In this document: positions 23,935-25,280 of the stretch, piece after piece
How positions within the stretch are numbered: position 1 is the first letter of the stretch
How the letters are laid out: each line of letters begins with the position of its first letter
Program-made: the position numbers and the translations under genes
Assembly (NCBI RefSeq): GCF_000337675.1
Contig: NZ_AOIB01000031.1
Span: 147,772-207,424, forward strand
Reading direction: 5' to 3'
Source of the DNA: Natronococcus amylolyticus DSM 10524
GTDB taxonomy: Archaea > Halobacteriota > Halobacteria > Halobacteriales > Natrialbaceae
Length of the DNA stretch: 59,653 nucleotides
The notes under the pieces: generated by a model
The model's input: the letters and a program-made list of their open reading frames with translations, nothing else
What the model was told of the DNA's origin: nothing
The model's database searches: none

Positions 23935-24025
23935 CGGCTCGTCGGCGGGCTCGAGCTTGCCCTCGGATTGTCGTCGCTCGCCGGAGAGGTACAGCTATTT
24001 GAGCGACGGGTTCCAACCGATCCCC

Positions 24026-24691
24026 GTGACCACAGACGAGCCCGTGCTGGCCGCGGCCGACGTCTCGGTCCGTCGCGGGAGCCAGCCGATCCTCGAGGAT
24101 CTCTCGCTGTCGATCCCGGCGGGCTCGCGGACGCTCGTCCGGGGACCGAGCGGCGCCGGAAAGTCGACGCTGTTCTCGGTGCTCGGGCTGCTCGAGCCGC
24201 CCGACAGCGGTCGGGTGCTGGTCGACGGAACGGACGCTAGCGGGCTCTCGGAGCGCCAGCGGGCCCGGCTGCGCCGGGACGCGATCGGCTTTGTCTTCCA
24301 GGACTTCCAGCTGGTGCCGGACCTGACCGTCCACGAGAACGCCGTACTGCCCCAGCACCACGGCGGCGACCGCGACGAGGCGTGGGTCGACGAACTGCTC
24401 GAGACGCTCGCAGTCGCCGACCGGGCGGATCGGTATCCGGCGACGCTCAGCGGCGGCGAGAAACAGCGGGTCGCGATCGCGCGCGCGCTCGCGAACCGGC
24501 CCGATGTCGTCCTGGCCGACGAACCGACTGGCCAGCTCGATCCCGAGACGACCGAGCGCGTGGTCGGGCTGCTCGTCGACGTCCAGGAGTCGGCGGGCAC
24601 CGCGCTCGTGACGATCAGCCACGATCCGTCGCTCGAGGGACTGTTCGATCGGACCGTGACGCTTCGCGACGGGCGGCTGCTCGAGGAGTGA
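24026..24691 (+). CDS. ABC transporter ATP-binding protein (MacB/LolD type)
   Basis: A 221-residue ATPase partner of the FtsX-like permease. Walker A is GPSGAGKST (residues 40-48), the signature LSGGEKQR (141-148), and Walker B with catalytic Glu VVLADEPT (161-168). The Q-loop is at FQDFQLVPD. I chose GTG 24026 because the ABC fold begins right after it; an in-frame ATG about 70 bases upstream would add an unrelated basic extension. The stop codon is the first part of a palindromic element. Confidence 0.9.
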   Translation: MTTDEPVLAAADVSVRRGSQPILEDLSLSIPAGSRTLVRGPSGAGKSTLFSVLGLLEPPDSGRVLVDGTDASGLSERQRARLRRDAIGFVFQDFQLVPDLTVHENAVLPQHHGGDRDEAWVDELLETLAVADRADRYPATLSGGEKQRVAIARALANRPDVVLADEPTGQLDPETTERVVGLLVDVQESAGTALVTISHDPSLEGLFDRTVTLRDGRLLEE

Positions 24692-24772
24692 TACGGATTG
24701 CTGTAACGATGTACCGGCGTAACCGCGACCCGTGCGGCGGTTGTGCCGGTAATAACTTACAGTAAACCGTAT
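24691..24772. repeat. 82-bp palindromic element (MITE-like)
   Basis: The two ends are inverted copies: reading inward, each begins ATACGG, then TT.CTGTAA, then TACCGGC and AACCGC. The arms match at about 27 of 36 positions. It begins exactly at the TGA of the ATPase gene. The structure could form a long hairpin and so serve as terminator. The strong sequence conservation of the outer 16 bases suggests a dispersed non-autonomous element. Confidence 0.6.
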
Positions 24773-25030
24773 GACCGAACGTCGTCGGAGCTGAGGTCGA
24801 CCTGCTCCGGAGAACGGTCTTCTCGGTCGACTCTCCAAACTATGTTGGAGTGGGAAATTTATCCTTTGTCTACATTCGGTAGAACGCGGACTATCCAGAC
24901 GCTCTCTGGACCGCCGCACACGACTGGTCGTCGTTCGACGGCCACTCGTGGACATCACCCCTTTGCCGATTCTCTCCCTTCTTGTCGCCCGATACCGACA
25001 GCCGTGGTGTTCGTGGGCACGGTTCAGCCA
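24773..25030. other. intergenic region upstream of the small HTH gene
   Basis: No gene seen. It holds the 16-base palindrome-like motif at 24834-24849 that recurs at 38983-38998, followed by AT-rich GGGAAATTTATCC. Confidence 0.4.
24834..24849 (+). promoter_or_regulatory. 16-bp motif shared with 38983-38998 (possible operator)
   Basis: TCCAAACTATGTTGGA is an imperfect inverted repeat (TCCAA/TTGGA arms). The exact sequence recurs inverted at 38983-38998, in another intergenic region. Such a match by chance in 60 kb is improbable. Confidence 0.4.
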
Positions 25031-25040
25031 ATATTTATAT
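25031..25040 (+). promoter_or_regulatory. TATA box of the small HTH gene
   Basis: ATATTTATAT, 25-34 bases upstream of the ATG at 25065, fits a leaderless start. Confidence 0.6.
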
Positions 25041-25064
25041 CATAGGCCGTTGCCGTCCTCTGTG

Positions 25065-25280
25065 ATGTCCACGAGCGAACAGAAGCTAGCGGTTCCGGAT
25101 GAGCTTGGATCACCACAGGCCAAACTCGTCTACCTGACGCTGCTGGAGATGGGGGAGGCGACGGCGAACGAGCTTCAGCGACTGCTGGGGCTATCGAAAC
25201 TGACGCTGTTACCGATCCTCTCGTCGCTAGTTGCGGATGGGTACGCCCAGCAAAGGAAGGGGACGTATGTCAGCCGGTAA
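25065..25280 (+). CDS. small winged-helix DNA-binding protein (71 aa)
   Basis: A 71-residue protein that is almost entirely a TrmB/MarR-like winged helix: SPQAKLVYLTLLEMGEAT, then the recognition helix region LLGLSKLTLLPILSSLVADG, then a short wing (YAQQRKGTYVS). It starts at ATG 25065, one TATA spacing from the TATA box. Its 3' end overlaps the next gene by 14 bases in another frame. It probably controls the downstream operon. Confidence 0.8.
   Translation: MSTSEQKLAVPDELGSPQAKLVYLTLLEMGEATANELQRLLGLSKLTLLPILSSLVADGYAQQRKGTYVSR

Follow-up and report, generated by a model that had tools for sequence, protein, structure and literature searches.

REPs are not known to make a target duplication, and elements of the REP/RAYT (HUH) type are characterized by the lack of a double-sided duplication and by a single orientation with respect to the target tag. 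REP/BIME sequences have been described (PMC3733652) as extragenic palindromes occurring in many copies, the REPs being 20–40 bp long and provided with an end tag. Prokaryotic MITEs, according to a review (PMC10969869), are short and non-coding, have inverted ends, generate a target duplication and occur in many intergenic copies without a transposase of their own. The sections of PMC3119063 that deal with short elements of the haloarchaeon Haloquadratum walsbyi describe (i) MITEs, which are small and transposase-free, have inverted ends and a target duplication, and are mobile even where an intact transposase was not found, (ii) SMRs of approx. 80–110 bp, with prominent inverted ends and a target preference, which do not duplicate the target and use other mobile elements as insertion sites, and (iii) PATE, which has no inverted ends and carries near-terminal palindromes related to IS605.

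We analyzed a stretch of 59,653 nucleotides of Natronococcus amylolyticus DSM 10524 (contig NZ_AOIB01000031.1), referred to below as the window, in which the original prediction had placed an 82-bp palindromic element at positions 24691–24772. The palindrome is present as claimed. Its outer 16-mers are inverted copies with two mismatches (0.03–0.06 matches are expected in shuffled sequence), and pairing of the inner blocks that had been proposed to pair is seen in the inner stem of the predicted RNA fold. The length of 82 bp, in contrast, did not hold for the repeating unit, which comprises 80 bp (24692–24771); the outermost A and T of the 82-mer derive from the flanking TGA direct repeats. 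The features of the locus are as follows.

23957..24691, plus strand: host gene encoding an ABC transporter ATPase of 244 aa, whose stop codon is used by the element
24689..24691, plus strand: left 3-bp target duplication TGA, identical with the ATPase stop codon
24692..24771, no strand assigned: 80-bp element with the ends TACGG...CCGTA, very probably a MITE copy (delimited by boundary call, family alignment and family unit length)
24692..24706, plus strand: left terminal inverted repeat, TACGGATTGCTGTAA
24712..24751, no strand assigned: inner 15-bp stem and 10-nt loop, with the top 12-mer GACCCGTGCGGC
24757..24771, minus strand: right terminal inverted repeat, TACGGTTTACTGTAA in minus-strand reading
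24772..24774, plus strand: right 3-bp target duplication TGA (a single TGA is present at clean empty sites of other loci)

The product of the gene at 23957–24691 was identified as an ABC transporter ATPase by its match to PF00005 (E 6e-36), and a gene for a large FtsX-like permease adjoins it. In the predicted fold of the palindrome an outer helix (24691–24706 paired with 24757–24772) is separated by symmetric 5-nt internal loops from an inner 15-bp stem (24712–24726 paired with 24737–24751), which is capped by a 10-nt loop. As RNA, the 82 bp fold with −48.1 kcal/mol (z −7.1), and as DNA with z −5.0; in both cases none of 200 shuffled sequences was as stable. No match to Rfam 15 was found within the window at the gathering score.

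The element resembles prokaryotic MITEs, with terminal inverted repeats at both ends, although at 80 bp it is small and the duplicated target is in many cases the stop codon itself. It is also similar to the MITEs of Haloquadratum, a comparison that was made by description and not by sequence; the part of PMC3119063 devoted to them mentions no stop-codon preference. The Haloquadratum SMRs are comparable in length, inverted ends and target preference, but the presence of a target duplication does not fit them, and the presence of inverted ends does not fit PATE. We consider it very probable that the element is a MITE, i.e. an 80-bp non-coding fold-back DNA transposon, whose movement would depend on a DDE-type transposase acting in trans and either encoded elsewhere or since lost. 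This reading, which agrees with the non-autonomous mobile element suggested by the original prediction, is based on the existence of a repeat family, the exact 3-bp duplication, the occurrence of identical copies in unrelated flanks, and empty sites with a single TGA in relatives.

A search for further copies, proposed together with the original prediction, revealed an 80-bp family with many intergenic members at gene ends and not the single copy that would have spoken against a mobile or repeated element. In its own genome (4.4 Mb) the whole element was found at approx. 15 places (E ≤ 0.005), and the first arm, with up to two mismatches, gave 16 matches vs none for the reversed control. All nine genomes of the genus gave matches. 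Within the Natrialbaceae, the arm pattern was found in 83 of 125 genomes (21 of 29 genera), with 0 to 373 matches per genome, and a looser pattern detected 620 arm matches in Salinadaptatus halalkaliphilus (G118, approx. 4.5 Mb). An order-wide draw gave matches in 99 of 392 genomes (62/96 in the same family and 37/296 outside it, where a genome has at most 27). The element occurs in nine haloarchaeal plasmid records out of 72,556, and none of 50,697 phage records contains a match. Most copies are 80 bp (140/187) or 79 bp (38/187) long, which is too short for a transposase, so that the many copies lack coding capacity. The common unit has the ends TACGG...CCGTA, 15-bp outer arms differing slightly from each other (ATTGC vs TTTAC), 5-nt internal loops, an inner stem of approx. 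15 bp, and a 10-nt loop.

Of 216 catalogued copies, 183 lie between exact direct repeats of 3 bp, almost invariably TGA or TCA, and none of the 216 has equal flanks of 4 bp. Some loci of the 216- and 255-copy catalogues (L075–L104 and L240–L269) were fetched by patterns containing TGA or TSA; the unbiased shares are therefore those of an unselected 400-kb stretch of one genome (G046), where 25 of 32 copies have TGA/TGA or TCA/TCA flanks, and of named loci found without flank sequence (66 of 81), two sets that overlap slightly. The fixed length of the duplication is accompanied by arms that face either way with respect to TGA or TCA (43, 36, 33 and 40 copies), and the two together are as expected from double-strand insertion. 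The preferred target is approximately GACTSAGNC, which is near-palindromic, and insertion sites at and away from stop codons have a common preference, GACTGA[G/A]NC.

Several observations testify to movement. An identical twin exists elsewhere for 22 of 140 80-mers, and the identical twins listed lie in differing, unrelated flanks. The gene ends of ten own-genome copies were compared with those of eight relatives of the genus. In 19 of the 65 comparisons the gene end did not align, and these were set aside. In 12 the site was filled (once by a short remnant), in 14 it was empty with an aligning flank (ten of these at ≥80% flank identity, covering six of the ten sites), and in 20 the element was absent and the flanks had diverged. 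Clean empty sites in sister species carry a single TGA; at site 6, for example, G006 has gacgacTGA|GACCG, vs gacgacTGA|80 bp|TGA GACCG in the own genome. Orthologous empty sites were thus found at other loci and not for the window copy. G005 (L380) has this copy as well, and the six other relatives read at this position lack it; in those without it the flanks have diverged or the stop codon is a different one, and no clean empty site was found among them. The share of copies with an intact duplication declines with divergence from the nearest other copy (78/82, 47/54, 49/59 and 40/60), as expected for ageing insertions. At two sites the distribution among relatives needs precise loss, introgression or repeated insertion. 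Site 2, at which loci L387, L388 and L390 were compared with L018, L389 and L391, is filled in G000 (the own genome), G006 and G002 and cleanly empty in G005, G004 and G001, G000 and G006 having a common CACCCGGGTC loop; site 8 is filled in G000 and G006 and empty in G005 and G004.

Since it inserts at TGA, the element frequently comes to lie precisely at a stop codon, which it restores. Among 255 copies, with genes called from codon usage and not taken from annotation, the duplicated TGA is exactly a called stop codon in 114, and 141 lie away from stops, one of them inside a called gene. Twelve own-genome loci were examined, of which L031 and L033 gave no copy at the threshold and were dropped; an open frame ends with the TGA at all ten remaining loci (the opposite frame is also open at three), and the stricter figure, by gene calling, is eight of nine own-genome copies at a stop codon. 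The same junction is found in annotated plasmid genes, independently of the gene caller, and annotated genes ending at the expected TGA include those of an archease (Natrinema thermotolerans) and a CPBP-family protease (Haloarcula hispanica).

Stop codons make up approx. 7% of the unoccupied TSA sites that are intergenic or stop codons. GAC-TGA is a gene ending that comes naturally with the acidic proteins of haloarchaea, and in the unselected G046 stretch the element fills 5 of 19 GACTGA stops; for other CTGA stops the figure is 9 of 57, and for the remaining TGA stops 2 of 112. When a weight matrix is trained on copies away from stops, the expected stop share is 16% (−3 to +5) or 27% (−7 to +7); the observed share, 46 of 98, is above both, so that the target preference accounts for part, and not all, of the excess. 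With respect to age, 30 of 82 of the youngest copies and 55 of 119 older ones are at stops (p 0.19). These shares do not differ significantly, which speaks against retention as the source of the excess. As the excess is found in young copies and does not rise significantly with age, we lean towards a combination of targeting and loss of harmful insertions near promoters.

According to the proposed mechanism, the inverted ends (TACGGWTTRCTGTA) would be bound by a transposase. This enzyme would either excise the element or make a copy of it, and would insert it at cuts staggered by 3 bp within the roughly palindromic target GACTSAGNC, after which gap repair would duplicate the central TSA. Where the target coincides with a gene end (e.g. 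the Asp codon GAC followed by TGA), the protein would remain unchanged, the stop codon would be rebuilt on the left, and the strong hairpin would become the start of the 3′ untranslated region.

The covariation of the stem was analyzed in 54 copies differing at more than 10 positions, with 1000 shuffles of halves between copies as the control, which is not a strict test of selection since the copies are related by descent. The inner stem is Watson-Crick paired at 82.3%, vs a shuffled mean of 68.5% and maximum of 72.5%, with compensatory changes at 12 of its 14 positions, and positions of the internal loop pair less than in the shuffled set (29% vs 47%). Pairing above the control in the stem and below it in the loop indicates that both stem and loop are kept. 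An earlier measure of palindromicity, averaged over the loops, had given the contrary result (0.72 self vs 0.76 cross) and was superseded by this position-wise test. The top of the hairpin can be inverted: the 12-mers of the window copy and of its G005 ortholog are exact reverse complements, and the outer arms are not inverted. Both loop orientations occur across the family (72 and 28 copies, plus 39 with other loops). Such a flip could result from recombination between the arms or from cruciform formation.

The short length, strong palindromicity, extragenic location, high copy number and covarying stem would also fit a REP/BIME-like palindrome spread by an HUH single-strand transposase (of the RAYT or IS200/IS605 type), with TGA serving as target and end tag. 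Such a single-strand mechanism would fix TGA to one orientation, whereas the asymmetric arms are found about equally in both, the 3-bp repeats are exact and two-sided in 183 of 216 copies, the target is near-palindromic, and empty sites retain one TGA; we therefore regard this origin as very unlikely, and the term REP-like, used in the original prediction, does not apply in its strict sense to an element that makes a target duplication in both orientations. The prediction had further considered a terminator-type repeat. A transcription terminator or 3′ processing hairpin, immobile and under selection at gene ends, would account for the very stable hairpin, the compensatory changes in the inner stem and the location of eight of nine own-genome copies at stops, and a hairpin gave partial (59%) termination in Haloferax volcanii according to a published study (PMC7237163). 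No T-tract follows the 80-bp hairpin, however, and a scan of positions 24400–25200 returned no terminator-like site. Sister species lack the hairpin at orthologous gene ends, 141 of 255 copies are away from stop codons, and the 3-bp duplications and the identical copies at unrelated sites would be left unexplained, which makes a purely regulatory hairpin extremely improbable. In view of the partial termination in H. volcanii, the hairpin may nevertheless have an effect on mRNA 3′ ends.

As an addition to the MITE reading, copies at stop codons may have become useful, being kept as hairpins that set the 3′ end or the stability of the mRNA. The share of 46/98 at stops exceeds the expectation even after correction for the target, and inner-stem pairing, which is not required of a plain MITE, persists while the sequence changes. 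We consider this refinement, which does not exclude the MITE reading, rather unlikely: even the youngest copies show the excess, harmful promoter insertions in intergenic space would by themselves raise the share at gene ends, and pairing may owe its persistence to the transposition mechanism or to recombination between arms. It is equally doubtful, in our judgement, that the element is a mobile hairpin for which the stop codon is a safe landing site, with GAC-TGA targeting and TGA duplication sparing the protein. Such an element would thereby gain access to transcription units and, over time, provide many genes across an archaeal family with interchangeable 3′-end hairpins, the arms staying complementary and the loop being flipped by recombination or cruciform formation.

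The 3-bp TNA target duplication of IS5-type elements of the IS1031 group is the same as that of the putative MITE; the ends of this group are not known to resemble TACGG..., and no IS1031-group-like element with the ends of the 80-bp unit was found in the genomes scanned. Partial scans of selected genomes and loci did not reveal an autonomous element with these ends. They covered 30 loci with PF01609 matches (out of 102 matches in six genomes) and another 20 stretches (19 selected on account of PF01609 matches), neither set containing TNA-flanked ends like these, and 2.35 Mb searched for TNA-TACGG pairs, where one low-scoring pair was found. Single arms near some transposases proved to be chance matches with three mismatches. 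Arms lacking CC at the hairpin position matched in 12 of 20 genomes, and the 30 loci read represented copies in decayed, shortened or nested form. In 400 kb of G088, the ends of repeated IS copies are different from these.

We found no published description of the 80-bp repeat among open-licence papers, five arm sequences searched as text giving 0 matches. Some haloarchaeal genomes, such as that of S. halalkaliphilus, contain very many members of the family, and its stop-codon habit has created a large set of natural variants of gene ends that are occupied in one species and vacant in its sister. Such pairs could reveal the effect of a strong hairpin directly behind the stop codon on archaeal mRNA. 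If the partner transposase were found, the system might serve as a marker, or as a tool for insertions that leave coding sequence intact.

Several forms depart from the 80-bp unit. In Salinadaptatus, some copies measure 137 bp and have an insert of approx. 57 bp in common (L138:6114-6251, L167:4318-4455 and L214:4414-4551). A very short form, approximately TACGGACTGCTGTCCGGCAGTA, which is apparently a fused or shortened element, is present at no fewer than six sites (at least C1, C5, C6, C8, C12 and C16) of G098. In Natrarchaeobius, a second palindromic family (CTATAGTAGCCACTG...CAGTTGT[CT]ACTATAG) is nested within copies of the 80-bp element (L117:4802 onward, L121:9079-9502, and L344 near 1524). 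Other copies (G046:C14:72949, G088:C1:2730786, G118:C21:12455 and L348, i.e. G103:C60:127953) are broken shortly past the arm by sequence bearing CATAGGG or ATAGGGAT, in which we probably see the terminus of a different element that targets these hairpins for insertion.
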